DNA of 64,000 nt from Kutzneria kofuensis (GTDB lineage: Bacteria; Actinomycetota; Actinomycetes; Mycobacteriales; Pseudonocardiaceae). Each line of letters starts with the position of its first letter. Within the stretch, counting starts at the first letter, position 1. The stretch is taken from assembly GCF_014203355.1 (NCBI RefSeq), contig NZ_JACHIR010000001.1:2048038-2112037 (forward strand). Reading direction: 5' to 3'. Shown in pieces: positions 37,801-61,026 of this stretch. Under the pieces are notes generated by a model, which was given only the letters and a program-made list of their open reading frames with translations, did no database searches and was not told the origin of the DNA. Both the position numbers and the translations under genes were made by a program.

Positions 37801-37828
37801 GCTGGGGCGGCGCATGCGCCGCCCCAGC
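37801..37828. terminator. 28-bp perfect palindrome
   Basis: Two 12-bp arms GCTGGGGCGGCG and its complement around CATG give a 28-bp perfect palindrome. It lies 39 bp after the stop of the first immunity gene (minus strand) and ahead of the sedolisin gene, so a terminator or RNA-end role for the ALF1 operon is likely, although no T-run follows. The rest of 37630-37867 holds no gene. Confidence 0.55.
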
Positions 37829-37867
37829 GCAGCGATCATCCACTGGCGGGACCAGTGGACAACGTCC

Positions 37868-41200: not shown

Positions 41201-41949
41201 GCGGCGTCCTTCGCGGCCTGGGACGCGGTCGCCGACCGGGCCTGCGCGCTCTGCGTCAGCGCGACGAGCTGAGCGATGGTCGCGGTTTCCTCGTCACGCT
41301 GTTGCGCGACCTGGAAGCCGTTGCGCAGGAACTGCCGGACGTCCTCGATGGACGAGGACAGCGCCTGGTTGCCGGCCAGTTTGACGTTCGGGCCGCCGTT
41401 GTTGACCAGCAGCTGCACCGAGATCCGGTCGTCGTTGTCCTGCGCCTGCTGCCACCCCGTGCCGAGGTACGCCAGCTGGTCGTCGATCGTGCCGTTGAGC
41501 GCGGCGTTGGCCGTCTGCTTCACCACCGGGCCGGTGGCGGCGGACAGCAGTCGGGTGATCTGGATCCGCACGTCGTCGTTCCACGGCTGCCGCCAGCCGG
41601 TGGTGAGGAACGCTCGCACGTCGGCGATGCTGCCGCTGAGCGCGGTGTTGGCCGCGGCCTGCGTGGCCGGACCGCCGCTGTTCAGCATGCGCTGCACGGT
41701 GACCCGGTCCTGGGTCTCCTGCATGATCACCAGCTGACTGGTCAGGAAGGTGTGCACGTCGGCGTCGGTGCCGCACAGCGCGGCCTCGGCAGCGCTCGCG
41801 ACGATCGAGTCGCCTCCGGTGACCAGCTTGATCAGCTGCTGGCGCTCGCTTGTCGACGGCGTGTCTGCCACGGCCGTGGGAACGGTCGCTGTGCCGATCA
41901 TCACCGCGACAGCGACCGTTGTGGCGGTTGCGGATAACAGTCGTCTCAT
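38242..41949 (-). CDS. ALF-repeat polymorphic toxin 1 with PD-(D/E)xK-like C-terminus
   Basis: A 1235-residue exported, Ala-rich protein. The signal peptide ends near VPTAVA (residue 28). Four ALF repeats occupy about 50-225 (pattern A-x-x-AL-x-G-x-x-x-D-x-x-x-FL). Next come a long Ala-rich coiled-coil-like stretch, a second ALF cluster in the middle, and a second Ala-rich stretch. A Gly/Ala-rich hydrophobic block follows (GGGLGLALSGVGMIAGGLAACG to LSMAMSG), possibly for membrane insertion. The last ~108 residues are DFDHIENGILWEDKTA plus a helical/strand tail; Asp1128/1130, Glu1139 and Lys1141 form a D...ExK motif of restriction-endonuclease-fold nucleases. ATG 41949 has AGGA upstream. The immunity gene follows immediately. 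Delivery route is unknown; there is no type VII or type VI motif. Confidence 0.72.
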   Translation of the reverse strand: MRRLLSATATTVAVAVMIGTATVPTAVADTPSTSERQQLIKLVTGGDSIVASAAEAALCGTDADVHTFLTSQLVIMQETQDRVTVQRMLNSGGPATQAAANTALSGSIADVRAFLTTGWRQPWNDDVRIQITRLLSAATGPVVKQTANAALNGTIDDQLAYLGTGWQQAQDNDDRISVQLLVNNGGPNVKLAGNQALSSSIEDVRQFLRNGFQVAQQRDEETATIAQLVALTQSAQARSATASQAAKDAAAQAIAAAAAAKASAQEAASQAQQANKSAAQAADAASRAASAAKRAAQAAQTAISSAQAATNAAREASNAASQAAWAASMAGQAAANARTAAANVATGKATAETASNAAKAARDAAAGARSVADAIQHAIDASKQVATAAQAAAQAASDAAAAASASRDAGNYASQAGASSDAAAAAADRAQRNADEAKRAAGSATALANEAANDAAQARQAALDAAAHADAAAAAADDAAKHAGEADGATARADAAAQEADNAATDAQNAADQAKSTADLARRADAERLAEQQSQGMRDAADALQDERDKVATTSWQVGTPEQVDQQTQALLTEARNPATAPDVAASDGRRAADRLWHNAGPQVRVAAINALGGSSADLTTFVQTGLAAAIERDDRFSLSIEAGASLVPAQRDAARAVESGTYDQVKQFLVTRAYPGKADDDRIAVQKILNTGGPITQSAANRALSGTPDDVAQFLATGRLKAAEDDDRAAVQVVLNNGGPEVKAAANAALSGPWSYVQQFLKVGQYQAQLRDADAAQHVAQINGYLADAAQAAANAKVNAAEAHEAAAQAHQADDQAHYWADQAAQSATAAGNAAADAKKSADAAQASANDAAVSAQQARDAAAAAQGSANAARNSAAAAAQSAAQANEFAAQAQASAQQAAADALAAGKAAADAAAAANDAWNIAYQKRDTNAAQQAVTSMQGTLQKLRDQAAAAVANHPELQPLVDTLNQLLSMMDTMAHATADYIRDHAGELLALMQHLIEVGGGLGLALSGVGMIAGGLAACGADVTTGMAIGGTATIETGPGTLAGAAVGGLGGLLVCVFAGGGAIAGGIAAILNGLSMAMSGIEGAADDVSKLAKNKGALEGRTKVEVFTKPGSGRDPITDFDHIENGILWEDKTAVSAGNPKIPGDIGDPGAWTKKQVTDKLEAYLYGRANGYLKDGSPVPDEYKNCPIGLRMETPGVQPELRTAIETAIDAFRAAHPDVTVLLEFK

Positions 41950-42118: not shown

Positions 42119-42220
42119 CTCGACCCGTCGTCGCAGATGAGGGGGCGCGCGTCGGCCGAGATTCACCCAGCGCTGTCGCGTTGTGCCTCGACAACACCGA
42201 ACAGGGGTGGATTTCGCACG

Positions 42221-42721
42221 ATGCGAGCCATATCCAGAGCACTACTCGCCATAGCGGTAGCTGGCACCGCAGTCGCCGTGTCGATCAGCGCCAGCACTGC
42301 GGCCAGACAGTCGGCGCAATCAGCGGATGGGCAACCGTCTCTCGTAGAAGACTTCAGTTACCCCGGCGCGGACAAGATTCTCGCCGACCGCGGCATCAAA
42401 CTGATCAGTGGTGACGGACACCTACTGCTGGTTGACTGCGTCAATGTGGCCACCTTGATCGAGGTGCACGCGTCCAGCCTTACCGACCACAGCAACGACC
42501 CGGGGCACTACTGCTTCAAGGTGAACGGAGCTTCCGGGGACCTCAAGCTCGAGCTGACCGACGCTTACCAGGTCAAGGGCGACAGCCACAACGTCCAGGC
42601 CAAGGTGTCGGTCGATGGCCAGAGCAGCACGGTTAACGTGGACAAGAACCGCTGGACCGGCATCGGCGTTGGTGCCGATTCGCACGCCGCCACCCTGCTC
42701 GAACTCAAGGCTTCCTCATGA
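42221..42721 (+). CDS. Secreted protein of unknown function, partner of S1-like protein
   Basis: A 166-residue exported protein. The signal peptide (RAISRALLAIAVAGTAVAVSI) ends near residue 27-30. The mature domain contains GIKLISGDGHLLLVDC, LIEVHASSL, HYCFKVNG and LKLELTDAYQVKGDSHNVQAKV, a beta-rich pattern with two Cys able to form one disulfide. It recalls small secreted actinobacterial proteins of unknown role. Its stop overlaps the start of the S1-like gene (ATGA), so the two are coexpressed, possibly as subunits or as protein and chaperone or inhibitor. Confidence 0.65.
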   Translation: MRAISRALLAIAVAGTAVAVSISASTAARQSAQSADGQPSLVEDFSYPGADKILADRGIKLISGDGHLLLVDCVNVATLIEVHASSLTDHSNDPGHYCFKVNGASGDLKLELTDAYQVKGDSHNVQAKVSVDGQSSTVNVDKNRWTGIGVGADSHAATLLELKASS

Positions 42722-44370
42722 CAGCGAAAGAAGCATTCACCATGCGCTATCGAAGACTCGCCGCTGCGCTTGTCAGTGCCACGGCAGCGATGAGCCTGCT
42801 GGCCCCGAGCGCACACGCCGGTCCCATTCCCGGTCCAGCCTGGGACTTGTCGTTCACCAAAATCACCATGGATGGTCGGGCCTGCAACGGCGTGTTGGTG
42901 TCCAACCAGTGGGTGCTCACGGCCGCGAGCTGCTTCCCGGAGAACCCGACGGGCGGCGCTCCGACCAAGGCCGCCAGCGCGGTCTTCTACAAAGAGACGG
43001 TGAAGATCGTCAACCTGGTCATCCGTTCCGACCGTGACCTCGCGCTGGCCAAGCTCGAGGTGCCCGTCGGGCAGGTGCCCCCGATGGCACTGGCCACGAC
43101 AACACCGGTCGTCGGCGAGGGTGTACGGGCCGACGGCTACGGGCGCACCGCGACGGAGTGGGTACCGGACAACGGCGAGAACGCCAGCTTCACGGTGAGC
43201 GGTGTCAGCCCGACCACGGTCAGCACTGCCGCCGTCAACGGTCATGACACGTGCAAGGGCTGGGCCGGCGGACCGCTGGTGCGCCAGGTCGGCGTCAATC
43301 TCGAACTGGTCGGCATCCACAGCACGTCTTGGCAGCACGGCTGCCTCGGCGAAACCGAGACCCGCTCGGGCAGCACGGCGACCAGGACCGACGACATCGC
43401 CGACTGGATCCGGCAGAACACCCCGCGCGTGCCTGACCCCGACCTGGCGATTCAGAAGCCGGTGACCGCGTCCAGCAGCTACGAGGCGGACGGCTGGAGC
43501 GCGAAGAACCTCGTCGACGGCTCGTCCTCGACCGCGTGGAGCAGCGACTCGAGCCTGGACAAAAACCACACCGAGTCGCTGACGGTCGATCTGGCCGGTG
43601 CGCTGAACGTGCGCAAGTTGGTGCTCTACCCACGCGGTGACGGCTCCAACGTCGGCACCGGGTTCCCGGTCGACTTCACCGTCGACACCACCCTCGACGA
43701 CCCAACGAGCCCGGACGCTAGGTGGACGAAGATCTTTACCGAAGCAGGGTTCCCGAAGCCGACCAGCGCCGCGCCGCTGGAGTTCTCCTTGGCTACCTCA
43801 TTCGGCGGTGCCAGCGCAGGTGCCCTGCGAATCACCGGGACGAACCTAAGCACCGACCCGAACGGTCAGTACCGCATGCAGCTGGCGGAGGTCGCCGTGT
43901 ACGGCGCCAACACCACGACCGGCAAGCCGGTGACCACGTCCAGCACCCAGGAAGTGCCATCTTCAGGGTGGAGCGCGAACTATGCCGTGGACGGCGTGCG
44001 GTCGGCTAACGGCACCGGCCGCGACGGCTGGACCAGCGGCGGTGGCCCTGCCGACCGCAGCGAATGGATCGAGGTCAGTGATATCGGCGGGTTCCCGATG
44101 ACGAGCATCGACCTCTACCCGCGGGCTGACGTGCCGGACGGCAGTGTCGGCTTCCCCAGCACGTTCACCGTCGAAGGCTCGACCGATGGCGGCAAGACCT
44201 GGACTCAGCTGGCCAACGGGTCCGGCATGCCAATCGCCAGCGCCGGGGGCGCACGGCGGCTCACCTTCCCCGCCACGAACTTCAGCGCCGTCAAGGTAAC
44301 CGGCAGTGGGTTCAAGGCCGACCAGTTCGGCAACTACTACATGCAGCTCGGCGAGGTCGAGGTGCGCTGA
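42718..44370 (+). CDS. Secreted S1 (trypsin-fold) pseudoprotease with two discoidin-like domains
   Basis: A 550-residue exported protein. The signal peptide ends near APSAHA (residue 34). Residues about 40-240 are a trypsin-like fold, but the motif LTAAHC reads LTAASCF (Ser71), and GDSGGP reads CKGWAGGPLV (Ala183). The catalytic His and Ser are therefore lost, while the Asp107 region RDLALAKLEV stays. Residues about 245-395 and 398-550 are two F5/8-type (discoidin/CBM32-like) domains: the first contains DGWSAKNLVDGSSSTAWSSD, the second SGWSANYAVDGV, and both end QLAEVAVYG or QLGEVEVR. The likely role is carbohydrate or surface binding. ATG 42718 overlaps the preceding stop; ATG 42742 would also keep the signal peptide. 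Confidence 0.82.
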   Translation: MTAKEAFTMRYRRLAAALVSATAAMSLLAPSAHAGPIPGPAWDLSFTKITMDGRACNGVLVSNQWVLTAASCFPENPTGGAPTKAASAVFYKETVKIVNLVIRSDRDLALAKLEVPVGQVPPMALATTTPVVGEGVRADGYGRTATEWVPDNGENASFTVSGVSPTTVSTAAVNGHDTCKGWAGGPLVRQVGVNLELVGIHSTSWQHGCLGETETRSGSTATRTDDIADWIRQNTPRVPDPDLAIQKPVTASSSYEADGWSAKNLVDGSSSTAWSSDSSLDKNHTESLTVDLAGALNVRKLVLYPRGDGSNVGTGFPVDFTVDTTLDDPTSPDARWTKIFTEAGFPKPTSAAPLEFSLATSFGGASAGALRITGTNLSTDPNGQYRMQLAEVAVYGANTTTGKPVTTSSTQEVPSSGWSANYAVDGVRSANGTGRDGWTSGGGPADRSEWIEVSDIGGFPMTSIDLYPRADVPDGSVGFPSTFTVEGSTDGGKTWTQLANGSGMPIASAGGARRLTFPATNFSAVKVTGSGFKADQFGNYYMQLGEVEVR

Positions 44371-44374
44371 CCAT

Positions 44375-44409
44375 GGGTGGCGGCCGGCCGAGCGGGTCGG
44401 CCGCCACCC
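44375..44409 (+). terminator. Hairpin after the S1-like gene
   Basis: Arms GGGTGGCGGCC (44375-44385) and its complement (44399-44409) form an 11-bp stem directly after the stop at 44370, before the enoyl-CoA hydratase gene. No T-run is seen, so termination may be partial. Confidence 0.5.
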
Positions 44410-44426
44410 CGCATAGAGTGCGGGCC

Positions 44427-45203
44427 ATGGCTGACGAGCTGGTGCACTACGCGGTGCAGCGAGGCATCGCGACGATCACTCTGGACTCCCCGCACAACCG
44501 GAACGCGCTGTCCGCCCAGTTGCGGCGCGAGCTGCGGGACCACCTGACGGCCGCGATCGCGGACGACGCGGTGCGGGTGGTCGTGCTGGCGCACACGGGC
44601 ACGGTGTTCTGCGCGGGCATGGACCTGAAGGAGGCCGGCGGGGCGAGCACCGAGCAGCAGGGGGTCAACGAGTTCCCGGCGATCCTGGAGCAGCTGTGGA
44701 CCAGCCCGAAGCCGGTGGTGGCGAAGCTGGCGGGCCCGGCGCGGGCGGGCGGCGTGGGCATGGTGGCGGCATGTGACATCGCGGTCGCGTCGGAGACGGC
44801 CACGTTCGCGTTCTCCGAGGTGCGCATCGGCGTGGTGCCGGCGGTGATCTCGGTGACGGTGCTGCCGCGGTTGCTGCCACGGGCGGCGCACGAGCTGTTC
44901 CTCACGGGCGAGACGTTCGACGCGGAGCGGGCGGTCCGGATCGGCCTGATCAACGCCTCTGTGCCGGCGGACGGTTTGGACGCCGAGGTGGACCGCTACA
45001 CGAAGATGTTGGCGCTGGGCGCGCCGAACGCCTTGGCGGCGACCAAGGAGATGCTGCGCGAGCCCCGCACCGGCGACATGGAACAGGACTTCACGGACAT
45101 GTTGGAGCTGTCCGCCAAGCACTTCGCCGGCGAGGAGGGCCAGGAGGGCATCGCCGCGTTCGTGCAGAAGCGCAAGCCGAGCTGGGTTCCTCAGGACAAC
45201 TGA
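44427..45203 (+). CDS. Enoyl-CoA hydratase/isomerase family protein
   Basis: A 258-residue crotonase-fold protein. The opening VQRGIATITLDSPHNRNALSAQL, the oxyanion-hole strand VLAHTGTVFCAGMDLKEAGG and the second oxyanion loop PVVAKLAGPARAGGVGMVAACDIAVAS with SEVRIGVVPAVIS are present. The first catalytic Glu of classical hydratases appears replaced in the ARAGGVGM region, so the exact reaction (hydration, isomerisation or other acyl-CoA chemistry) is uncertain. ATG 44427 is used. Its 3' end overlaps the convergent barstar gene by 13 bp. Confidence 0.88.
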   Translation: MADELVHYAVQRGIATITLDSPHNRNALSAQLRRELRDHLTAAIADDAVRVVVLAHTGTVFCAGMDLKEAGGASTEQQGVNEFPAILEQLWTSPKPVVAKLAGPARAGGVGMVAACDIAVASETATFAFSEVRIGVVPAVISVTVLPRLLPRAAHELFLTGETFDAERAVRIGLINASVPADGLDAEVDRYTKMLALGAPNALAATKEMLREPRTGDMEQDFTDMLELSAKHFAGEEGQEGIAAFVQKRKPSWVPQDN

Positions 45204-45478
45204 TAGCGGAACTCGGGGTTCTCCTCGACGGCCTGGTCGAGGACGGCGACGATCCGCTCGTACGCGGTCGGGTCGTCGCCGCGCAGCACCTCGTGGTGCC
45301 GCCAGACGAGAACGTGTTCGCCGGCGGGCAGCCAGGACAGGTCGAGCAGGCAGTCGCGCAGCGCGTCCAGGTTGCGGCCGAAGTAGTCGGGGAACGACAG
45401 CGCCGCCGCGATGCCGTCCAGTGCGGAACCCCGGTCGTGCAGACCGGTGCCGTCCAGTACGTGCCGCATGCCGCTCAT
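45191..45478 (-). CDS. Barstar-family ribonuclease inhibitor
   Basis: A 95-residue cytoplasmic protein with the barstar motif FPDYFGRNLDALRDCLLDLSWLP, which forms the inhibitor helix that plugs RNase active sites. It overlaps the upstream RNase gene by 4 bp (ATGA), so it is co-translated with the toxin and protects the producer. Met1 and Met4 are both possible starts. Confidence 0.9.
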   Translation of the reverse strand: MSGMRHVLDGTGLHDRGSALDGIAAALSFPDYFGRNLDALRDCLLDLSWLPAGEHVLVWRHHEVLRGDDPTAYERIVAVLDQAVEENPEFRYQLS

Positions 45479-45918
45479 CGTGTCGGATCCACCACCACGA
45501 ACGAGTCGTAGTGGTCGTCGGTGTAGTACAGCTCACGTTGGGAGCCGGTGATCAGCCGCCGGGTGGCCCGGTTCTTCGCGCCCGGCGTGTCCACGGTGTA
45601 CTCGTGGTAGTAGCCGTCCTTGTTGCGCGGCAGCAGGTTCCCGTTGTTGTGGAACACCACACCGTCGTTGCGCGGGTACGGGAAAGGGCCGCCCTTCTGG
45701 ATCAGCTTCCAGGTGTCGGCGGCCTCCTTCGGCAGCGACGACAGCGTCTTGACCGGCAGACCGGACGACGCCCCCGGCACGGTGGCGCTCGCGGACGCGG
45801 AGGTGGTGGTCGGCGCGGTTGCGCCCGACCCGCTGGACAGGTCCCTGATCAGCCAGCCGGCCAGCACGAGCACGATCAGGCCGACCAGGGCGATGGTGAT
45901 GCGTCGGCGCGGTGTCAC
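45475..45918 (-). CDS. RNase Sa/T1-type guanyl ribonuclease, signal-anchored
   Basis: A 147-residue exported RNase. An N-terminal hydrophobic segment (about residues 8-24) acts as signal or anchor, followed by a Ser/Thr/Ala linker to about residue 50. The microbial RNase domain matches RNase Sa: Glu106 in YYHEYTVDTPG, Arg117 and Arg120/121 in AKNRATRRLI, and His136 in YYTDDHYDSF, all catalytic positions. It lacks the two-Cys pattern of RNase Sa in this domain. With barstar it forms a toxin-immunity pair. It is 10 bp downstream of the small membrane gene. Confidence 0.93.
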   Translation of the reverse strand: MTPRRRITIALVGLIVLVLAGWLIRDLSSGSGATAPTTTSASASATVPGASSGLPVKTLSSLPKEAADTWKLIQKGGPFPYPRNDGVVFHNNGNLLPRNKDGYYHEYTVDTPGAKNRATRRLITGSQRELYYTDDHYDSFVVVDPTR

Positions 45919-50467: not shown

Positions 50468-50797
50468 TCAGCCGTTCTGCGACTGCCACCAGTCGTCGAC
50501 CATCTTGACCAGATCGGCCACCATCTCCACGATGTCCGGCTGGTCGGCGAACTCCCGCTCCGCCGCCGGCATCAGGTCCTCGAGCACCGCCCTGGTCAGG
50601 TCCGGCGCCTGCTCCGGTTCGATCAGGTCGTACCCGACGAGCCAGTACCGCTGCTCGGCCAACTCCCGCAATGTCGCCGCGAGCCGCGGGTCCCGGACAT
50701 GCTCGGCCAGCACATTGACCACCCACGCGACCAGTCCACGAGAGGCGTTCCAGCTCTCGGCGTTGGGACCGAGACCCACCGTGAAGTACGCCGACAC
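50468..50797 (-). CDS. Putative immunity protein for ALF2
   Basis: A 109-residue acidic cytoplasmic protein beginning MSAYFTVGLGPNAESWNASRG, with LAATLRELAEQRYWLVGYDLIEPEQAPDLTRAVL and AEREFADQPDIVEMVADLVKM. It begins 2 bp after the ALF2 stop. The protein at 60388-61026 is clearly homologous over this whole length, so the pair forms a small family I do not recognise. No other function is visible; the immunity call rests on position, size and lack of export signal. Confidence 0.6.
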   Translation of the reverse strand: MSAYFTVGLGPNAESWNASRGLVAWVVNVLAEHVRDPRLAATLRELAEQRYWLVGYDLIEPEQAPDLTRAVLEDLMPAAEREFADQPDIVEMVADLVKMVDDWWQSQNG

Positions 50798-50799
50798 TG

Positions 50800-53700
50800 C
50801 TACTCCAGGATGAACACGAAGGGCTGATACGGGAGGATGAATTCGCGCACCTTGGCCGCCTGCTCCGGCGTCAGGTCGCCAAGCTCGACGGGTACCATAT
50901 CAGCTTTGCCCAGAACGTGCTTGGCGATTTGGTTCTGTATATTTCCGAGTCCCCACTGCTTGTCGAAGTACTGAGACTTCAGCGGGCCTATCCCATCAAA
51001 GGTTCGCCCGTCGAGGCTGATCCAGTCCGCCCCCTGATTGAGAGGCCAGCGAATCAGCTGAACACCGAATTTCTTCTCCAGCGCGAGGGCCATGGCTTGC
51101 TCGTCAGCATTGAACTTCCAGCCGTCCGCCGGATCACAGCCGAGGCGATAGATGCGACTCGCCTCGTCCGCCTCCATCGCGGCGCGGGCCTCGGCGGCGA
51201 CCGCGGCGGTCAGTCTCTCGTTCGCGATCCACCCGTCCTCGAAGACGTCGATCGCCCTCGTGGTGAGCGCCGCGCCCAGTACACCGCCACCCGCGAGGTT
51301 GTACGACAGCTGGAGCCACGGCATGATCGCCGCCCCTTCCGGCGAGGCGGAAAGGGCAGCCATGCCGCATATGTTGGACATCATGCAGCGCATGGAAACG
51401 AGTGCTATGCCGAGTCCGACCTCGAGAGTCGAGATTGCCGTCATGAGCTGGTTGACGAGCCCGAGCGACTGATCGGCGGCGAATGCCGGGTCGAAGGTCT
51501 CGTGGATGCAGTTCTCGAAGTACGGGGTTCCCTGCTGGAAGATGTTCGAGCAGAACACCCCTCGGTTGGCGATGATCTGGATCCGTTCCTCGGGGCTCGA
51601 CGCCGCGAAGTGCATGCAGTCGTCGTAAGCGGCCTTGTCGCCGACGTTGACGGTCGCGCAGTAGTTCGACAGTCGGAACGCCTGCTGCGCCCGCTCATCG
51701 TTGAACTTCGTGATCGCCTTGTCCGCCGCGTCCTTCGCGGCGGCAGCGGCGGCCTGGGCGTCCCCGCCCGTCTGGATCATCGCCCAGTAGGCCACTCGCC
51801 ACGCCTCGTAGGCGGTGCTCGCGTAGCCGGCGGCCTGGCTGGCCGAGGACTCCGCCCACAGAGCCGACTTCGCGGCCTGACGCGCGTCGTTCTGCGCGGT
51901 CGTCGCCGCTTGCTTGGCGGTGGCGGCCGAAGCGGCGGCCGCCACCGCCGACTGCTCCGCCCGCACCGCGGAATCGTGCGCGTCCTTCGCGGCATTGGCC
52001 GCGTCCGTGGCCGATGCCCGCGCCGCGGCGGCGTACTCGGCCGCCTTGTCCGCGAGTCCACGCGCCGTGTACGCGGCGGCCTGGGCGTCGTTCGCGTTCT
52101 GGTTCGCGGTGGCCGCGGCCTGCGTCGCCTGCTTGAGATAACCGGCGACCTCGGCGTCGTGGGACGCCGCCTCGTGGTCGTGCCGCTCGGCCAGGTACTG
52201 CCCGGATGTCAGGAACTGGCGGAGCGTGCCGTCCGTGCCATCGAGCGCCGCCTGGGCCATCCCCTTGGTCTCCGGGCCGCTGGCCGGGTCGGCCAGGATC
52301 CGGTTCACCGCGATCCGCTGGTCCTGCGACGCGGCGACATACTGTCCTTGCGTGAGGAAGGCGTTGTACGCCGCCTCGGTGCCGGCGTCGAGAGCCTTCT
52401 GCGCCGCCTGCTGGACAGCGACCCCGCCCGAGCTCTGCGCGGCGGCGAGGACACGGTTCACCGCGATCCGGTCATCCATGGACCTGTTGGGGTAGTCCCG
52501 ACCGGCCAGCAGTGCCCGCACATCGGAATCGGTCCCCTTCAGGGCGGTGTCCGCCGCCTTCCGGAAGCCGTCGGTGCCGAGGTCCGCCACGTTCTGCAGG
52601 GTGATCCGGTCATCCTGGCCGGCTGCGACGTCGATGCCGCCGCGAACGTAGGCGAGCACCTGTCCGTCGGCTCCGGACAGTGCGGCGATCGCCGCGGCCT
52701 TGGTCCACGAGCCACCGTTCCGTGCGAGCCGCAGGGCGATCTTGCGGCCATCGGCGACCGCGACCGCGTCCGAGGTCCCGCTCGCCGTCGCCTCCGCGAT
52801 CAACCTGCTCGTCTCGGCATCACGGCGTGCCTGCTGGGTGGCGCTCCAGTCCGTGGTGTACGGGTTGGACACAGCCGCGGCCTTCGCCTTCGTCGCGTTG
52901 TCGTCGGCGTCCTCCGTCATCACCGCGATTCGCTCGGCGTCGGCCTGGCGGGCGGCGTCATAGATGCTGCTCGCCTGCGTGGCGGCAGTGGTCGCACGGG
53001 CCGCCGCCTCGGATGCGGCATTCGCGTGCTGGGTCGCTTCCGCCGCGGCATCGGCGGCGTGTCCGGCGTGATCCGCTGCCGAGTCGGCTGCCGCCGCAGC
53101 CTCCAAGGCGTCAGCCGCCGCGCGATTTGCCGCATCTCGCGACGCGTACGCGGCGGACGCGGCGACGTGAGCGAAGTTCTGCGCGGCGTTTGCCGCTCGA
53201 GTCGCCCTTGCCGCCTGGTTACGTGCCTCCCCGGCCGCAGCGATGGCTTGGCTGGCGTCCACGCCCGCGTCGTGCGCGAAGTTGCCCGCGTCGACAGCCG
53301 CCTGGGCGGCGGCAGCGGCTTGATTTCCGGCATCCCGCGCAGCGCCAGCAGCGTCACTGGCGTGCTGTGCCGCGTCGCCCGCCGCCTGTGCGGCGTTGGC
53401 CGCCGCCTGTGCCCCGGCAGCCACGTCACGCGCTTGCTCTGCTGCCCGGCGCGCGTCCGGCGCACGTGCTTCATCCCCCACGGCCGCAGTCGCGGCGTCC
53501 TGCGCCGTGGCGGCCGCCTGCCCCGCCTTCGACGCCGCGGTCGCCGCCCGCGCGGCCGCCGAAGCAGCCACCCTGGCCGCGCTGCTCGCCGAGTTCGCCG
53601 CTCCGACGGCTTCCCTCGCGGCAGCCGCAGCACGGTTCGCCGCGTCCGCCGCCGTGTTGGCCGCGGCCGCGGCTGCGTTGGCGTCGCCGTGCGCTTTCTG

Positions 53701-54519
53701 CGCGGCCCCTGCCGCGGCCACCGCCGCTTGGCGGGCGAGTTCGGTTTCCACCGCGGCCCGGTGCGCGGCGTCCATCGCGGCTTGGGTCTCGCGCGCCGCC
53801 TCGTCGCCCGCGTCCTTGGCGACGTTGGCCAACTGGGCGACGGTCTGGGTCTCCTGGTCTCGTGCCTGCGCGACCGGCAGGTCCTGGTCGAGGAACTGGA
53901 CGTACGCGTCCAGCGTCCCGGCGTCCAGCGCCACCTGCGCCGACTTCCGTACTTCCGAACCGCCGCCGGCATAGATCTGGTTGATGCGAATGCGCTGGTC
54001 CGTCTGCCAGGGATTGCGCCACCCGGTGGCGAGGAACTGCTGGAGCGCGTCGACAGTGCCGGCATCGAGCGCCTGCTGCGCTGCCTTGCGGGTCTCGTCT
54101 CCGCCCTGCGCGAGCCGTTGATCGACCTGGACCCTCAGGTCGGTCTGGCGCGGGGTGTTCCAGCCGGAGTCCAGGAACTGGTGGATCGCGCCCGGATCGG
54201 TCGAGTCCAGCGCCTGCTGGGCGGCCGTTTTCGTGGCCACGCCGCCGTTGGCGAGCATGCGGTCGACCGTGATGCGCTCGTCCAACTCGGCCGCGTGCTG
54301 GTAACCCGACGTGAGGAACGTGTGGACGTCGGCGTCACTGCCGACCAGCGCCCGCTCGGCCGCGCTGCGCACCAGTTGCCCGCTCACCTGCCACAGCATC
54401 ACCACCCGAGCCCGGTCGGTCGTCTGCGGCTGGGTGTCTGCCGAAGCCGTGGCCGGCACGAGAAACCCCGCTATCAGAGCACCTGCTGTTGTCACTGCCA
54501 CGAGCGACCGTCTGCTCAT
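50800..54519 (-). CDS. ALF-repeat polymorphic toxin 2 with CdiA-CT-like C-terminus
   Basis: A 1239-residue exported Ala-rich protein on the plan of ALF1 and ALF3. The signal peptide ends near PATASA; ALF repeats lie at about 50-215 and again in the middle, with long Ala-rich coiled-coil-like spans between. A Cys-rich pre-toxin region at about 950-1090 (YDDCMH, GVFCSN, FENCIH, SNICGMAALSASPEGAA) is shared with ALF3. The last ~110 residues (GCDPADGWKF onward) contain GADWISLDGRTFDGIGP at 1163-1179 and NQIAKHVLGKADMVPVEL, recalling CdiA-CT-type tRNA-nuclease tails (Asp...Asp in a strand pair followed by K...AD-x-V). ATG 54519 has GGGGGAG upstream. The immunity gene starts 2 bp after its stop. 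Confidence 0.72.
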   Translation of the reverse strand: MSRRSLVAVTTAGALIAGFLVPATASADTQPQTTDRARVVMLWQVSGQLVRSAAERALVGSDADVHTFLTSGYQHAAELDERITVDRMLANGGVATKTAAQQALDSTDPGAIHQFLDSGWNTPRQTDLRVQVDQRLAQGGDETRKAAQQALDAGTVDALQQFLATGWRNPWQTDQRIRINQIYAGGGSEVRKSAQVALDAGTLDAYVQFLDQDLPVAQARDQETQTVAQLANVAKDAGDEAARETQAAMDAAHRAAVETELARQAAVAAAGAAQKAHGDANAAAAAANTAADAANRAAAAAREAVGAANSASSAARVAASAAARAATAASKAGQAAATAQDAATAAVGDEARAPDARRAAEQARDVAAGAQAAANAAQAAGDAAQHASDAAGAARDAGNQAAAAAQAAVDAGNFAHDAGVDASQAIAAAGEARNQAARATRAANAAQNFAHVAASAAYASRDAANRAAADALEAAAAADSAADHAGHAADAAAEATQHANAASEAAARATTAATQASSIYDAARQADAERIAVMTEDADDNATKAKAAAVSNPYTTDWSATQQARRDAETSRLIAEATASGTSDAVAVADGRKIALRLARNGGSWTKAAAIAALSGADGQVLAYVRGGIDVAAGQDDRITLQNVADLGTDGFRKAADTALKGTDSDVRALLAGRDYPNRSMDDRIAVNRVLAAAQSSGGVAVQQAAQKALDAGTEAAYNAFLTQGQYVAASQDQRIAVNRILADPASGPETKGMAQAALDGTDGTLRQFLTSGQYLAERHDHEAASHDAEVAGYLKQATQAAATANQNANDAQAAAYTARGLADKAAEYAAAARASATDAANAAKDAHDSAVRAEQSAVAAAASAATAKQAATTAQNDARQAAKSALWAESSASQAAGYASTAYEAWRVAYWAMIQTGGDAQAAAAAAKDAADKAITKFNDERAQQAFRLSNYCATVNVGDKAAYDDCMHFAASSPEERIQIIANRGVFCSNIFQQGTPYFENCIHETFDPAFAADQSLGLVNQLMTAISTLEVGLGIALVSMRCMMSNICGMAALSASPEGAAIMPWLQLSYNLAGGGVLGAALTTRAIDVFEDGWIANERLTAAVAAEARAAMEADEASRIYRLGCDPADGWKFNADEQAMALALEKKFGVQLIRWPLNQGADWISLDGRTFDGIGPLKSQYFDKQWGLGNIQNQIAKHVLGKADMVPVELGDLTPEQAAKVREFILPYQPFVFILE

Positions 54520-54551
54520 GTCTCCCCCTTTTCCACAACACTCTGGACACA

Positions 54552-54589
54552 CGTGGGTCGCCGGCCGCATCACCGACCGGCGACCCACG
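54552..54589 (-). terminator. Hairpin between ALF3 immunity gene and ALF2
   Basis: Arms 54552-54564 and 54577-54589 pair perfectly (13 bp, core GTGGGTCGCCGG) around a 12-nt loop. It lies 9 bp after the ALF3 immunity stop and 32 bp before the ALF2 start on the minus strand, so it may separate the two cassettes. No T-run follows. Confidence 0.55.
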
Positions 54590-54598
54590 CTCGGATCA

Positions 54599-54955
54599 CT
54601 ACTCGGCCCGCTCGGGCTCGACGAGAACCAGCTCCGGATCCACGCCACCGGCAGAGTGCCGGATCACACGCACCAGCTGCGCGGCAACGAATCCGACACC
54701 ACCGGGCCACTCAATCTCAACTTGCAGCAACGCTCGCGGAGATTCCCGAGGGCGGTACCCCTCGTGCGTTTCCACCGTTCGCAACACGATGCCACCGGAC
54801 ATGATCCGGCTCAGTTCCATTCGGTCGACGCCGATGAACTCGACGTCGATGTAGTCCTCCGTCGAGTCACCGAAGCCTCTCAGCACCAGCCGTGAGTGCG
54901 AGACGGTGAACTGCATGGGGTGGAACGACCTGTCGCTGGACCAGAGTTCGGACAT
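54599..54955 (-). CDS. Putative immunity protein for ALF3
   Basis: A 118-residue acidic protein. It begins MSELWSSDRSFHPMQFTVSHSRLVLRGF, continues DYIDVEFIGVDRMELSRIM and RALLQVEIEWPGGVGFVAAQLVRVIRH, a mixed alpha/beta pattern, and ends LVEPERAE. There is no signal peptide. The ATG at 54955 lies 10 bp after the ALF3 stop; the sequence before it is shadow frame. It is unrelated to the other two putative immunity proteins. The role is inferred from its position between two ALF toxins. Confidence 0.55.
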   Translation of the reverse strand: MSELWSSDRSFHPMQFTVSHSRLVLRGFGDSTEDYIDVEFIGVDRMELSRIMSGGIVLRTVETHEGYRPRESPRALLQVEIEWPGGVGFVAAQLVRVIRHSAGGVDPELVLVEPERAE

Positions 54956-54965
54956 CGGCTCACCA

Positions 54966-57900
54966 TCACTTGTCGAACGGATTCGGCACCGGCGTGTTTC
55001 CCGCGTCACGATAGAAGGACACCCGGTTCCAGGCCGACGGCGTGCTCTTGATCTTGTACAGCTCCCAGTTCGTGTACTGGTACATCTCAGTGGGACCCTC
55101 GGGGCTGTCAGCCGCTTGGCCGGCCGCCGCCGCCTCGTCCTCCGCTCCCTCGGGGATGCCGTCCAGGTTGACATAGATCTTGGTTTCACCGTTGGTCAGG
55201 TAGTACTCGAATTCATCCCACCACTGCAGCTTGTTGATGTCCTTCCACAACCAGTCGGTGTAGGGCGTCGCCTCCACCTTCGTCGCGAATTTCGCCAACC
55301 AGTCCCACTCACCGTCGTATTCGGTCCACCCGAGCGCGATGGCCTTGCACGGACCGCTGGCCGCGTTCGGCCGAGCCGCGACGGAGCCGGCCGGCGTCCG
55401 GTCGACAGCACCACTCCGACCGGACGCGTTGGCGACGAAACCGCCGGCAACTCCGGCCGGACATGTCGCCAACGCGTCCTCGGCATCGCTGAAGATGTTG
55501 TACGCGTTGTCGCCGTAGAGGGCGTCCAGTGCCTCCGTGTCCACGAGAGCGTCGTCGAGCGCCGCGGCAACCCGAGCGGTGGTGAACGCACCGCCCGCGC
55601 CGATGCCGGCCAGCGTCATCCACGGGGTGAACGCGGCGCCGTCAGGAGTGATCGCCATGACCGCGAGCGCGCAGATCTCCGAGATGGCGCAGGCGGCCGT
55701 GGCGACGCCGCCGATCGTGGCAACCGCCAGGCCTGCGGCAAGGCCCAACAGCGCATCGATCGCCGGCACGAGCAGGTCCATCGTGCGGTTGCTCTGGAAG
55801 TTCGGATCCAGAACATCCTTCATGCAGGTCTGGAAGTTCTCGTTGACGACGCCGGTGTTGCCGCCCATCTGCAGCGACGCCTGCTGCATGCCTTGGCACA
55901 CCTCGGCGTTGGACAGCGCCTGACCCATCCGGTCGGCGATGGGCTGGCTGATCAGGTGGATGCAGTTGTCGTAGTCCGCGCCACCGTCGGGATGGTGCGC
56001 CTTGCACGACGCCGCCTGTTTGACCAGCGCGTCGGCCTTCTCGGCGTCGATCTTGCTGATCGCGGTCTTCGCGGTTTCCCGGGCCGCGGCCAGCGCGTCG
56101 TCGGCGGACTTGCCGGCGGCCCGGGCCGCATTGAATGCGACGCGGGACGAATCGTAGGCGTCGCTGGCGAACTGGCCGGCCTGGTATGCGGATGCGACGG
56201 CCCACTCGGCGGACTGTGCGGCCTGCCGGGCCGACCCATCGGCCGAGGCCGCCGCGTTGCGAGCGGTCGCGGCCGACGCGGCAGCTTGCTGCGCGGACTG
56301 TTCCGCCCGCGTGGCGGCATCGTGAGCCTGGTTCGCGAAGTTCTGTGCGGCCAGAGCGTCGGCGGCCGCCTGGTTCTTCGCGTTGGTGGCATCCTGGGCG
56401 GAACCACGCGCGTTGGCCGCCGCGAGCTGGGCGGCGTCCGCGTCCTGTGCCGCCTTCACCGCGATCTCGCTGGCCTGCTTCAGATATCCGAGAACCTCGG
56501 CGTCGTGCGTGGCCGAGTCGGAGTCGTGCTGCGCGGCGATGTACTGCGTCTTGGTCAGGAACTGGTTCAGGAACGCGGGCGGGCCGTCCAGCGCGGCTTG
56601 GGCGTCCGCCTTGAGCTCCGGGCCGGAATTCGGGTCGGCCAGCACGCGGTCGACCTTGATCCGCTGGTCGTCCGCTGCCGCCGGATACTGCCCGGCGGCG
56701 AGAAAATCGCGCAGCGCCTGGTCGGTGTTCGCGTCCAGCGCCTGCTGGGCGTTGCTCGCGACGGCGGTGCCGCCGGACTGCTGTGCCGCGGCCAGGATCT
56801 GGTTGACCGCAATCCGGTCATCGATGTAACGCTGCGGATAGTCCTTGTGCTGCAAGAAATTCTGCACATCGGCGTCCGAGCCGGCGAGCGCCGCCTTGGC
56901 CGCCGCCTGGAAGTTCGGCGTGGCGGTGGCCGCCAGGTTCTGCAGCGTCATGCGGTCGTCCTGGCCGGCGGCCATCGTGATGCCGCTGCGGACGAAGTCA
57001 AGTGCTTCGTCGTCGCTGCCCTGGAGCACGGAGGTCGCGGCTGCCTTGGTCCACGGCCCGCCCGTGTCGATCACCGCGAGTGCGACCTTGCGGGCGTCGG
57101 TGAGCGCGAGCGCGCGATCGGTGCCGGGCGCGTTGGCCTCGGCGATCAGCCGGTTGGTCTCCGCGGTTCGCGCCGCCGCCTGCGTGGCATCCCAGGCGAC
57201 CTTCGCGTTCTGTTGCGCCGCAATGTCCTTGGCTTCCTTGGCGGCCTCGTCGAGCTGCTCGGTCGAGGTCTGGATGCGGGCGGCGTCGGCGGCGCGAGCA
57301 GCATCGTAGACCTGTTGCGCCTGATTGGCGGCGTCGATCGCACGCTGGGCGGCAGCCGAGGCATTGTTCGCATGCAGGGTCGCCTTGTTCGCCGCATCGG
57401 TCGCTTGCCCAGCGTGCGCGGCCGCATCCTCCGCCGCTGCTGCCGCGGCGATCGCGTCCTGAGCCGCGAGGTTGGCGGCATCGCGAGACCGGTAGGCGGC
57501 GTCCGCGGCGGCATTGGCGAACGTCAGGGCGGCCTGCGACGCCACGTGTGCACGGTTCGCAGCGGCCCGGGCCTTGGCGGCGGCCGCTTTGGCCTGAGCC
57601 GCGTCAGCGCCCGCGTTCTCCGCGTCGGCGCTGGCCTGCGCGGCGGATTCCGCCGCGGTCGCTGCCTGGCTGCCGGCGTGATCGGCCGCGGCAGCGGCGG
57701 TGTGTGCCGCCTTCGCGGCGTCACCGGCCGCGGTCGCGGCGACGGAGGCCCGTTGTGCGCCAGCCGCTACGTCACGGGCGTTTTTCGCGGCTGTGGCAGC
57801 ATCACCGGCCTTGGTCTGATCCAGAACCGCAGCCGCGGCAGCGTTGTACGCGGCGGACGCGGCCTGGCCGGCCATCGACGCGGCCGATGCGGCGCGAGCC

Positions 57901-58886
57901 GCCGCGCTTGCGGCGACCCGGGCCGCCGCCGTCGCCGCGTTTGCCGCACCGACAGCCTCCTGTGCCGCGGCCGCCGCGTTGTCGGCGGCCACGGCGGCTT
58001 GTCGGGCCGCGTCCGTGGCCTGGTCGGCATGGTGCCCGGCATTCGCGGCCGCCGTCGCGGCCGCCGCGGCGGCCTGGCGTGCGGCTTCGGCTTCCTTGGC
58101 GGCGCGGTCGGCTTCCTCCTGTGCCGCGTGTGTCTCCCGGGCCGCCTCTTCGCCGGCGTCCTTCGCGACCCCGGCGAGTTGCTCGACCGTCGCCGTTTCC
58201 TGGTCGCGGGCGGCGGCCACCGCCCAGTCGTTGTCGATGAACTGGGTGAGCGCGTCGACCGAGTTGGCATCCAGCGCGCGCTGCGCGACCTTCTGCACCT
58301 CCGGGCCGCCGGACGCGAGGATCTGGTTCACCCGGATCCGCTGGTCGGTGGCGAACGGCGTCTGCCAGCCCGACGTGAGGAAGGCCTTGTACGCGTCGGT
58401 CGTGCCGGCGTCCAACGCCTGCTGGGCGGCCTTGTGCACCTCGGCGCCGCCGGCGGACATCAGCTGGTCGATGCGGATCCGCTGGTCGGTGGCAGCCGGC
58501 GTCTGCCAGCCCGACTTGATGAACGCCGGCAGGGCATCCGCCGCCGTGGAGTCCAACGCCTGCTGGGCTGCGGCCTGCACGGCCGGACCACCCGCGGCGA
58601 GCAGCCGGTCCACGTTGATCCGGTCGTCCACCTGCTTGAGGTGCACGATGCCGGTGGTCAGGAACGTGTGCACGTCGGCGTCGCTGCCGACCAGAGCCTG
58701 CGCGGCGGCCGCACGGACCATCGAACCGCCGGTGTGCAGCAACGACAGCACCTGGCTGCGTTCACGGGCTGGATCGATCGGTGTCGAATCGGCCGATGCC
58801 GTGGCCGGAACGGCCGTGAGCGACGCGACGAGCGCAAATCCGATCCCGAGCGCTACCGCACGAAATTCACGTCTAACCCGACTCAC
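54966..58886 (-). CDS. ALF-repeat polymorphic toxin 3 with unrecognised C-terminus
   Basis: A 1306-residue exported protein with the same architecture: signal peptide ending near VPATASA, a first ALF cluster (for example AAAQALVGSDADVHTFL), a long Ala-rich span, a middle ALF cluster, a second Ala-rich span, and a Cys-rich pre-toxin region (YDNCIH, AEVCQG, FQTCMK, ISEICALAVMAITPDGAAFTPW) that aligns with that of ALF2. The last ~170 residues are of a type I do not recognise: GWTEYDGEWDWLAKFATKV, DWLWKDINKLQWWDEFEYYL, then YTNWELYKIKSTPSAWNRV and VPNPF near the end. GTG 58886 has GGGGGG upstream. The immunity gene follows after 10 bp. Confidence 0.7.
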   Translation of the reverse strand: MSRVRREFRAVALGIGFALVASLTAVPATASADSTPIDPARERSQVLSLLHTGGSMVRAAAAQALVGSDADVHTFLTTGIVHLKQVDDRINVDRLLAAGGPAVQAAAQQALDSTAADALPAFIKSGWQTPAATDQRIRIDQLMSAGGAEVHKAAQQALDAGTTDAYKAFLTSGWQTPFATDQRIRVNQILASGGPEVQKVAQRALDANSVDALTQFIDNDWAVAAARDQETATVEQLAGVAKDAGEEAARETHAAQEEADRAAKEAEAARQAAAAAATAAANAGHHADQATDAARQAAVAADNAAAAAQEAVGAANAATAAARVAASAAARAASAASMAGQAASAAYNAAAAAVLDQTKAGDAATAAKNARDVAAGAQRASVAATAAGDAAKAAHTAAAAADHAGSQAATAAESAAQASADAENAGADAAQAKAAAAKARAAANRAHVASQAALTFANAAADAAYRSRDAANLAAQDAIAAAAAAEDAAAHAGQATDAANKATLHANNASAAAQRAIDAANQAQQVYDAARAADAARIQTSTEQLDEAAKEAKDIAAQQNAKVAWDATQAAARTAETNRLIAEANAPGTDRALALTDARKVALAVIDTGGPWTKAAATSVLQGSDDEALDFVRSGITMAAGQDDRMTLQNLAATATPNFQAAAKAALAGSDADVQNFLQHKDYPQRYIDDRIAVNQILAAAQQSGGTAVASNAQQALDANTDQALRDFLAAGQYPAAADDQRIKVDRVLADPNSGPELKADAQAALDGPPAFLNQFLTKTQYIAAQHDSDSATHDAEVLGYLKQASEIAVKAAQDADAAQLAAANARGSAQDATNAKNQAAADALAAQNFANQAHDAATRAEQSAQQAAASAATARNAAASADGSARQAAQSAEWAVASAYQAGQFASDAYDSSRVAFNAARAAGKSADDALAAARETAKTAISKIDAEKADALVKQAASCKAHHPDGGADYDNCIHLISQPIADRMGQALSNAEVCQGMQQASLQMGGNTGVVNENFQTCMKDVLDPNFQSNRTMDLLVPAIDALLGLAAGLAVATIGGVATAACAISEICALAVMAITPDGAAFTPWMTLAGIGAGGAFTTARVAAALDDALVDTEALDALYGDNAYNIFSDAEDALATCPAGVAGGFVANASGRSGAVDRTPAGSVAARPNAASGPCKAIALGWTEYDGEWDWLAKFATKVEATPYTDWLWKDINKLQWWDEFEYYLTNGETKIYVNLDGIPEGAEDEAAAAGQAADSPEGPTEMYQYTNWELYKIKSTPSAWNRVSFYRDAGNTPVPNPFDK

Positions 58887-59550: not shown

Positions 59551-59653
59551 GGCCGCCAGCATCCACATGATCAACCTCGTCACCACGCCCTCGACCACGG
59601 CGCCCCCGTCACCGCGATCTGGCCCGACGGCTGTCAGCGGGACTGATTCAGCC
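59551..59653 (+). pseudogene. Deleted, frameshifted copy of the end of the SLOG gene
   Basis: Positions 59551-59576 match the segment encoding AASVHM of the intact gene (50259 onward); after a deletion of about 70 bp, positions 59577-59653 match 50350-50427 including the C-terminal codons for VTxIWPDGCQRD, the stop and a few bases beyond. One missing base in the CACC-ACG stretch shifts the frame. The stop codon of the Uma2 gene (59634-59636) lies inside this remnant. Confidence 0.85.
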
Positions 59654-60203
59654 GGCCCAGCAGGTCCGCCGGCGCCACCCGCACCGGGAACGGTCGCTCA
59701 GCGTCATAGGCATCGTCGCCCTTGACGTCGGCGACCAGCTCGTACTCGCCGGCCTCGGCCAGTTCGAACACCGTCAGCCTCGGGTCCAACGGGTCGACGA
59801 CCCAGTAGCTCTGCACACCCATCCGCTGGTAGGCGGCCTTCTTCGTGTTGAGGTCGTACAACGTCGTACTCGGCGACAGGACCTCCACCGCCAGCAGCGG
59901 CGCCACCGGCAGGTTCTTCTCTGTCAGGTCCTCGTTCCTCGCGACCAGGACATCGGGCTGCACCTCGTTGTCGTTCGCCGTCTGCACCGCGAACGGGGCT
60001 GGCAGCACGTGCAGATCATCGGGGCAGGCCGACTCGAGGCGCACGATCATCTGCGCGACCATCTTCTGGTGCCTGAGCCCAGGCGCCGGGCTCACGAAGA
60101 GCATCCCGTCGATGAGCTCGTAGCGACGCCCGTCATCGGGCATCACCTCCAGGTCCGCCACGGTGAGCGGCCCCGAGGGCATGTACGTGTCCATGGCTGT
60201 CAT
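59634..60203 (-). CDS. Uma2-family (DUF820) PD-(D/E)xK endonuclease-like protein
   Basis: A 189-residue protein with the Uma2 pattern: TVADLEVMPDDGRRYELIDGML (the conserved E-x-x-x-G), VQPDVLVAR with the catalytic Asp region, LAVEVLSPSTTLYDLNTKKAAYQRMGVQSYWVVDP with the E-V and D-x-x-x-K residues. Such genes are very abundant in actinomycetes and cyanobacteria, often scattered and mobile-element associated, with no proven function. Its last codons and stop lie in the decayed SLOG copy, so the C-terminus (GRLNQSR) is probably derived from the junction. Met1 or Met4 may be the start. Confidence 0.85.
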   Translation of the reverse strand: MTAMDTYMPSGPLTVADLEVMPDDGRRYELIDGMLFVSPAPGLRHQKMVAQMIVRLESACPDDLHVLPAPFAVQTANDNEVQPDVLVARNEDLTEKNLPVAPLLAVEVLSPSTTLYDLNTKKAAYQRMGVQSYWVVDPLDPRLTVFELAEAGEYELVADVKGDDAYDAERPFPVRVAPADLLGRLNQSR

Positions 60204-60387: not shown

Positions 60388-61026
60388 CTATCTCTCGCCC
60401 CGACCGGATTCCGGCTCTACCGACCCGGATTCCGCTGCCCACATGTCCAGCGACTCCTCCAGGGCGGCCTGGAGCTGCTCGGTGTGTTCGCGCCGGTCGG
60501 CCCAAGCCTGGCTGTGGACGACCACCTCTCGCGCCTCGACGAGGGTGCTGTTGGTCAGGGATTGAACCGCTAGCACGCATTCGGCCTCAAAGAAACCCTT
60601 GGTGCGTAAGCGGGTCAGTACCTCCTCCATGCTGGCGCCGGCGGCCAGTTGGCGACGGCTCATGGCGAGCGCCTCCTCGTAGCCCCACTCCATCAGCTCC
60701 ACCCGGTACTCGGCTTGCCACTCGGTGACGAGGTCGACCAATTCCTGAGTGTGGGGGACGAACCAGGGATGGTCGCCGTACTCCCGTTCGGCGGCCGGGA
60801 TCAGGACATCGATCATCACCTGGACCAGCTCGGGTACCTGGTCCCGCTCGACGGAGTCGAAGTAGAACCACTGAAGCCCGCTGTCTGCCCGCGCACGCAG
60901 CGTGGCGGCGAGGCCGGGGTCCTGGACATGGCCGGCAACGGTGTTCAGGACCCAACCGAGCATGCCACGAGTGCAGCTCCAAGGTTCCGGATGCGGGCCA
61001 AAACCTACGTAGAAGTCGGCGGACAT
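60388..61026 (-). CDS. Orphan homologue of the ALF2 immunity protein with C-terminal extension
   Basis: A 212-residue cytoplasmic protein. Residues 1-107 are homologous to the whole ALF2 immunity protein (shared VGxGPxxExWxxxRG, VxHVxDPxLAATLR and LIPAAERE/LMPAAERE blocks). Residues 110-212 add an alpha-helical domain (EWGYEEALAMSRRQLAAGASMEEVLTRLRTKGFF, then VVHSQAWADRREHTEQLQAALEESLDMW). No toxin gene is next to it; the Uma2 gene and lepA flank it. It may neutralise toxins from neighbouring cells or be left from a lost cassette. Confidence 0.7.
   Translation of the reverse strand: MSADFYVGFGPHPEPWSCTRGMLGWVLNTVAGHVQDPGLAATLRARADSGLQWFYFDSVERDQVPELVQVMIDVLIPAAEREYGDHPWFVPHTQELVDLVTEWQAEYRVELMEWGYEEALAMSRRQLAAGASMEEVLTRLRTKGFFEAECVLAVQSLTNSTLVEAREVVVHSQAWADRREHTEQLQAALEESLDMWAAESGSVEPESGRGER

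Follow-up and report, generated by a model that had tools for sequence, protein, structure and literature searches.

The available part of a 2012 survey counts ALF as one of the repeats found in polymorphic toxins exported by Sec, and it associates Ntox27 with both ALF and RHS carriers. Work published in 2024 identified the ALF proteins of Streptomyces coelicolor as UmbC, around which secreted umbrella particles are built, as described in the available parts of two papers (PMC11062931, PMC13274773). S. coelicolor UmbC consists of a ring and a stalk, UmbB binds five ALF repeats, and UmbA binds UmbB and carries lectins (PMC11062931, PMC13274773). The particle stops the growth of other Streptomyces, and its immunity gene is located directly downstream (PMC11062931, PMC13274773). 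Here, a 64,000-nucleotide stretch of the genome of Kutzneria kofuensis, an actinomycete in the Pseudonocardiaceae (NCBI RefSeq assembly GCF_014203355.1, contig NZ_JACHIR010000001.1, positions 2,048,038 to 2,112,037 of the forward strand; hereafter the window) was analyzed that encodes three large ALF-repeat proteins. The original prediction for this DNA stated that ALF repeats are usually described as having no known function, a description that the survey and the S. coelicolor work have overtaken. The three proteins are, with high probability, UmbC cores of umbrella toxin particles; UmbC-A would pair with the adaptor UmbB1 encoded beside it, and UmbC-B and UmbC-C would pair with a second adaptor, UmbB2, encoded elsewhere in the genome. 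Such a system is of an already known kind, and its novelty appears to reside in the tip set, the immunity families and a split, type-matched adaptor arrangement.

Like the S. coelicolor particles, the K. kofuensis system comprises several UmbC proteins per strain, each with two ALF clusters, coiled coils and a variable tip, an UmbB protein with a VED motif, and an UmbA protein that combines a noncatalytic trypsin fold with lectin-like domains, and the predicted immunity genes lie directly downstream. It differs from that of S. coelicolor in that two tandem UmbC genes lack a type-matched UmbB gene close by; that UmbB–UmbA pair is located about 6 Mb away. The available text of the umbrella papers (PMC11062931, PMC13274773), supplementary tables excluded, describes an unlinked UmbA, and no mention of an unlinked UmbB or of tandem UmbC genes was met there. 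The carrier genes (umbC), small genes (umbD) and adaptor genes of the window are given below (aa, amino acids; ORF, open reading frame; SH-aLRT, SH-like approximate likelihood ratio test; L and G numbers denote individual loci and genomes compared).

38242-41949, minus strand: umbC-A, exported ALF-repeat carrier with tip A, 1235 aa (ORF and start; Pfam ALF; homology to carriers B and C; ring sister L198, SH-aLRT 100)
50800-54519, minus strand: umbC-B, 1239 aa, carrying tip B, downstream tandem member (8w20_A, E 2.7e-94; Pfam ALF; ring in type-2 clade)
54966-58886, minus strand: umbC-C, 1306 aa, carrying tip C, upstream tandem member (Pfam ALF; ring in type-2 clade)
37868-38242, minus strand: umbD-A (A′), predicted immunity to tip A, DUF6086, 124 aa (PF19564, E 6.7e-15; DUF6086 relative beside tip A in 7/8 places)
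50468-50797, minus strand: umbD-B (B′, immB), predicted immunity to tip B, 109 aa (family member downstream of 13/17 distinct tip B)
54599-54955, minus strand: umbD-C (C′, immC), predicted immunity to tip C, 118 aa (family member downstream of 7/7 distinct tip C)
42137-42721, plus strand: umbB1 adaptor, divergent from umbC-A, probable start 42221 (8w20_B, E 1.2e-16)
42718-44370, plus strand: umbA1, probable start 42742, pseudo-trypsin followed by two lectin-like domains of F5/8 type C (Pfam; 9oee_A, 8w20_C)
39643-41823, minus strand: umbC-A segment with the first coiled-coil span, flanked by its two ALF clusters at 39643-40182 and 41305-41823 (coordinates from the genome ALF search)

Among PDB sequences, 8w20_A is the sole match of UmbC-B at E up to 0.001 (E 2.7e-94); 8W20 and 8W22 are the structures deposited by the 2024 umbrella-toxin paper, according to its available part. 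UmbB1 is a secreted 194-residue ORF whose match to 8w20_B spans the sequence VEDFSYPGA. UmbA1 contains a trypsin domain (Pfam Trypsin, 1e-19) and, downstream of it, F5_F8_type_C matches (6.1e-22) in two stretches. The UmbA1 trypsin domain matches 9oee_A (6.7e-34), which is presumably UmbA4, and 8w20_C (6.8e-30), and the catalytic His and Ser residues are substituted in UmbA1 and in both of these chains, as read by eye from the alignment. Given the matches to the 8w20 chains, the window therefore holds UmbC, UmbB and UmbA genes together with candidate UmbD genes. The original combination of carrier, tip and small gene is correct for the parts and falls short of the whole system, which also needs UmbB and UmbA. 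Likewise, the three carriers and their small genes had been located, and the umbB–umbA pair (42137-44370) and a B′ paralogue (60388-61026) had been overlooked.

The coordinates and Pfam ALF (UmbC-A, E 2.5e-65 with 7 repeats; UmbC-B, 3.1e-55 with 8 repeats; UmbC-C, 2.8e-65 with 8 repeats) confirm the predicted set of three exported ALF proteins of 1235, 1239 and 1306 residues, two in tandem and a third copy apart. An ALF search of the whole 10.4-Mb genome, with 150 of 288 first-look candidates scored, yielded 22 repeats, every one of which lies inside the three umbC ORFs. The signal peptides were assigned by eye, and each contains RR in the n-region, again by eye, as a candidate twin-arginine signal would. 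The carriers align via two ALF clusters and two alanine-rich spans, in agreement with the proposed common carrier; up to about alignment column 900, identity in 60-column windows is 47–72% between B and C, 27–57% between A and B, and 23–55% between A and C, and from there it declines. The tips are unrelated, as proposed: when the C-terminal 130–170 residues of the three proteins are compared by BLAST, matches among them extend over 6 residues at most, and no end-to-end alignment was seen. A different small gene follows each carrier at the predicted -1, +2 and +10 bp, with A′ overlapping umbC-A by 1 base and B′ and C′ separated from their carriers by 2 and 10 bases, and A′, B′ and C′ do not match one another (best E 0.76). 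Pfam at E up to 1 found no Rhs or two-partner-secretion family in the three carriers, and no two-partner-secretion domain, CdiB, Rhs repeat or HINT domain was matched in them. NCBIfam gave no convincing match for the proteins or for seven tip sequences. Position 4 of the ALF repeat was considered as proof of five spokes and dropped; in ALF6, read by eye, it is F in UmbC-A, I in UmbC-B and M in UmbC-C.

The K. kofuensis genome encodes two UmbB and two UmbA proteins, and the second pair (UmbB2–UmbA2, C1:8112053-8113389) has no ALF gene nearby. UmbA2 carries FG-GAP repeats in addition to a pseudo-trypsin. Further, weaker trypsin matches of this genome were rejected; in L033, L034 and L035 both catalytic residues, His and Ser, are intact by eye, and L036 has no readable motif. 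A transposase-like ORF, assigned by eye, lies near UmbB2–UmbA2 (L037, 10948-12177) and may mark the site of a lost UmbC.

The pairing of rings and adaptors was assessed by their co-divergence. A scan for UmbB yielded 80 loci, the best of 178, and together with the loci of further relatives these provided 77 UmbC–UmbB pairs, of which 67 were used after exclusion of the window's 3 pairs, 2 duplicates and 5 pairs with gaps of at least 1000 bases. UmbB and ring identities are correlated over the 67 pairs (Mantel r 0.768; maximum of 2000 permutations, 0.096), with r values of 0.80 in the 28 non-Streptomyces pairs and 0.78 in the 39 Streptomyces pairs. The similarity profile of UmbC-A correlates with that of UmbB1 (r 0.84) and not with that of UmbB2 (r 0.09); the profiles of UmbC-B and UmbC-C correlate with UmbB2 (r 0.85 and 0.80) rather than UmbB1 (r 0.21 and 0.23). 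The ring tree places UmbC-B and UmbC-C in a 15-row set (SH-aLRT 98) with 12 loci that have an EIRGDG-type UmbB and with L156. UmbB2 is found in the matching 15-row set of the UmbB tree (SH-aLRT 99), where L156 is the sole row without an EIRGDG-type motif. L198 is the sister of both UmbC-A (SH-aLRT 100) and UmbB1 (96). Such co-divergence argues that UmbC-A pairs with the adjoining UmbB1 and that UmbC-B and UmbC-C pair with UmbB2.

Unlinked genes in other genomes are of matching types. Outside the rule-building set, G633 contains two UmbC genes without a nearby UmbB; the rings of both are of type 2, as is the single full-length UmbB match in that genome. An unlinked type-A UmbC (L202) and an unlinked type-1 UmbB (L200) are present in G351, and G436 contains an unlinked type-A UmbC (L205) with a type-1 UmbB elsewhere; L206 of G419 is too short for typing. 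The ALF ORF of G420 (L207), with 4 repeats, is probably not an UmbC because its ring is at most 33% identical, and no UmbB was found in G420 at E up to 1e-4. The tail of L207 resembles LGFP repeats by eye, and from its features some ALF proteins may therefore not be umbrella toxins.

One chromosomal site, bounded by gene 36 or 37 on one side and the enoyl-CoA hydratase gene (44373-45203) on the other, was compared across seven genomes of the genus Kutzneria. The site contains A′, UmbC-A, UmbB1 and UmbA1 in the window, a type-2 UmbB and an UmbA near the same tandem in G436, and A′ and UmbC-A in G351 (89% DNA identity over 37868-41926); no umb gene was found at the site in G403, G420, G314 or G381. 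From these states (C+D+B+A, B+A, C+D and none), the UmbC–UmbD and UmbB–UmbA modules therefore appear to be gained and lost separately. UmbA1 and the UmbA of G436 are 52% identical over 523 aa, their lectin parts have no match to other ORFs of the compared set, and the UmbB proteins in front of them are of different types and 43% identical. The adaptor type was therefore replaced in front of one conserved UmbA. It is probable, with room for doubt, that the particles are encoded in pieces, in which ring-specific UmbB types would constitute a lock-and-key code, the C–D and B–A modules would move independently, and a distant UmbB–UmbA pair would equip at least two UmbC proteins in trans.

The C-terminal tips of the three carriers occupy the following positions.

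38245-38646, minus strand: tip A, predicted nuclease toxin of 134 aa with the motif TD-D...WE-K (invariant residues; other carriers; swap boundary near residue 1100)
50803-51225, minus strand: toxin tip B, 141 aa, CdiA-tRNase-like (PF18664 below cut-off, relative above; 5j4a_A profile match)
54969-55385, minus strand: toxin tip C, 139 aa, distant Ntox27-like (pretoxin-HINT carriers; relatives L108 and L157 below Ntox27 cut-off)

Tip A has no Pfam or PDB match worth keeping, profile matches included. The TD-D...WE-K residues are invariant across seven tip A sequences, which suggests a nuclease of the PD-(D/E)xK type. Tip A relatives are located on an Rhs protein (L043; Pfam RHS_repeat, 7.1e-40), on L044 and L045, two long proteins for which Pfam gives no match, and on the ALF proteins L122, L165, L198 and L202. 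L046 was left out of these counts (53-residue match, E 6.4e-4; profile-list entry judged spurious by eye). A DUF6086 gene adjoins tip A in seven of eight places (the window, L043, L044, L045, L122, L165 and L202), and A′ scores 55.7 bits to DUF6086 (PF19564; cut-off 31.9).

Tip B is predicted to be a CdiA-tRNase-like RNase. Its own match to CdiA_C_tRNase (PF18664) is weak (E 8.7e-4, 20 bits; cut-off 26.5), a close relative in L068/L144 exceeds the cut-off (33.3 bits, E 6.7e-8), and the tip B profile matches the PDB chain 5j4a_A, 'tRNA nuclease CdiA' (E 1.3e-4). Unlike the CdiA tRNase, tip B is mounted on an ALF stalk and accompanied by an immunity family without a Pfam entry. An immB relative follows 13 of the 17 distinct tip B sequences, one of them at 2.8 kb, and none of the 66 UmbC genes without tip B. 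A place represented by more than one retrieved copy entered these tip counts a single time; the 78-UmbC control still includes the two duplicates. A common origin of A′ and B′ was considered and dropped as not demonstrated (profile comparison E 0.0019, probability 14%). Some tip B relatives occur in shorter architectures. A 402-residue UmbC-like ORF (L072, 706-1911, and L190) contains one ALF cluster followed directly by a tip B relative, without the coiled coils and the second cluster, and immB and UmbB come after it. L074 and L075, short proteins (303 and 223 residues) that lack ALF, end in tip B relatives, and an immB relative comes next in each case. Type-A UmbC genes with CdiA-tRNase-like tips are followed by a different small gene of 107–129 aa (L194, 10082-10405; equivalent position in L085/L195), which represents a possible further immunity family; the L194 gene has no Pfam match.

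Tip C itself matches neither Ntox27 (PF15531) nor, convincingly, any PDB profile. Its distant relatives in the Streptomyces ALF-HINT proteins L108 and L157 match most of the Ntox27 profile below the cut-off of 24 bits (E 0.034 and 0.0052; 14.6 and 17.2 bits), and tip C is thus read as a putative distant Ntox27 relative. Tip C also occurs on the pretoxin-HINT carriers L049, L050 and L052, with weak Rhs-type matches in L049 and L052, and immC, which has no Pfam family, is beside seven of seven distinct tip C sequences. A class-wide search of 296 genomes found tips B and C in the K. kofuensis genome only, and a family-wide search of 346 genomes did yield relatives of both; a plasmid collection contained no immC or tip B match. 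Relatives of tips A and C thus occur, together with their matching small genes, on Rhs and pretoxin-HINT toxins, whereas Pfam found no Rhs repeat or HINT domain in the three window proteins. The separate search of each C-terminus that had been proposed for this locus shows tips A and C recurring on other carriers, mostly with the matching small gene adjoining.

Comparison of carriers with the same and different tips reveals tip exchange. UmbC-A is 38–72% identical to L194 and L195 (34% in one window) until about residue 1100, and beyond this point the identity drops to 18–36%; the tips of L194 and L195 are CdiA-tRNase-like. UmbC-A and the tip A carrier L198 remain at least 42% identical through to the end. 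The swap boundary comes after hydrophobic segments, which were located with Kyte-Doolittle windows.

38701-38943, minus strand: hydrophobic segments preceding tip A, residues 1003-1083
51391-51447, minus strand: hydrophobic segment preceding tip B, residues 1025-1043
55644-55784, minus strand: hydrophobic segments preceding tip C, residues 1035-1081

One may speculate that these segments help to cross the target membrane; translocation is named as an open question in the available part of the umbrella-toxin paper.

Toxin loss with retention of immunity is observed in G351. At its tandem site, with the same neighbours, UmbC-B and UmbC-C are gone, and an intact immB relative (90% over 108 aa) is kept along with a member of the immC family (39% over 111 aa; one-to-one comparison, E 1.7e-16). 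The scrap of DNA between the two immunity genes contains remnants of tip B, 42 bp at 88% identity and the last codons of the gene. No immA, immB or immC match was found at these sites in G403, G420, G314 or G381. A putative orphan immunity gene is also present upstream of the tandem in the window.

60388-61026, minus strand: B′ paralogue, 212 aa, no toxin gene beside it, predicted orphan immunity (43.7% to B′; relative in G436)

This ORF is 43.7% identical to B′ over 103 aa (E 9e-30), and a relative (61%) lies at the corresponding place in G436. The polymorphic toxin and immunity logic of the original prediction is supported at the sequence level by the linkage of tips and small genes, by the other carriers and by the loss of toxins with immunity kept in G351.

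By analogy with the published S. coelicolor work, the encoded proteins would assemble into secreted particles that kill. The two ALF clusters of UmbC would close into a ring that holds UmbB, and UmbB would hold UmbA, whose dead trypsin fold would carry the sugar-binding domains that select the target cell. The two coiled coils would form a stalk with the toxin at its tip. Each tip would poison a competitor differently, tip A as a predicted PD-(D/E)xK-type nuclease, tip B as a CdiA-tRNase-like RNase and tip C as an Ntox27-like toxin, and the adjoining gene (UmbD) would protect the producer.

Several observations weigh against this reading. Among the three carriers, the solved UmbC was compared with UmbC-B only, and carriers A and C are tied to the UmbC family via alignment with UmbC-B. 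The tip–immunity linkage has exceptions: the tip A of L198 lacks a DUF6086 gene beside it, 4 of 17 tip B sequences lack an immB relative, and an immC-family gene is downstream of 3 of 77 UmbC genes without a profile-level tip C (L108, L157 and L110; this count lies outside the 67-pair set). L108 and L157 are explained by their distant tip C relatives, and L110 is unexplained. In the 39 Streptomyces pairs alone, the UmbC-A profile correlates less with UmbB1 (r 0.11) than with UmbB2 (r 0.54), a result that is expected if near relatives are absent there and that a universal code would not predict. UmbB1 is also closer to the tandem than UmbB2, and cross-use is possible. UmbB1 and UmbA1 could accordingly serve all three UmbC proteins, with UmbB2 and UmbA2 a remnant pair that no longer has a function. 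No other UmbB lies in the window, and UmbB1 is about ten genes from the tandem, near the ten-gene linkage criterion given in the available published text. However, the co-divergence is opposite for UmbC-B and UmbC-C, the equivalent position in G436, close to the same tandem, holds a type-2 UmbB, and S. coelicolor UmbC1 is specific for UmbB1 according to the available parts of PMC11062931 and PMC13274773. A single shared adaptor is for these reasons unlikely.

Two further explanations dispense with the particle and are less probable still. The locus could encode generic polymorphic toxins of contact-dependent inhibition (CDI) or Rhs systems that use an ALF stalk and have no particle partners, since the tip logic is the same and tips are common to an Rhs carrier. 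This is very improbable, as UmbB and UmbA homologues adjoin UmbC-A and the three proteins lack Rhs and two-partner-secretion matches. Least probable of all is a structural or developmental role of the ALF proteins in which the variable tips are not toxins. Tip activity is predicted here from sequence, and G420 has a non-UmbC-like ALF protein in a genome without a detected UmbB, both of which would suit such a role. The exchange of tips with non-ALF toxin carriers, the CdiA-tRNase match and the paired and orphan immunity genes argue for toxins, and the type-matched umbrella particles remain the preferred reading.

Other genes surround the umb sites. A secreted or membrane-anchored barnase-like ribonuclease (45191-45918, minus strand; PF00545, 4.3e-21) with a barstar gene directly after it (PF01337, 1e-26) lies between the two umb sites and is conserved in congeners. 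A kumamolisin-type protease (34570-37839, minus strand; Pro-kuma_activ, 2.8e-29) adjoins the variable umb site and is also present in G436 and G420, and tblastn found no match in the compared site stretch of G403, G314, G381 or G351. A Uma2-family gene (59634-60203, minus strand; 1.3e-33) lies upstream of the tandem and is found at the site in G351, G403, G420, G314 and G381 (a fragment in G381), with no match in G436.

The locus joins a class of secreted toxin particles known for only two years, whose range it extends in a family outside Streptomyces. DUF6086, a term not met in the literature searched, gains a predicted immunity role, and B′ and C′ add two immunity families that Pfam does not contain. 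The split arrangement constitutes a natural experiment on which UmbB a UmbC ring accepts, and the pairing is directly testable because of the co-divergence, the swap of UmbB type before one conserved UmbA (G000 vs G436) and the type-matched unlinked UmbC proteins of G633 and G351.

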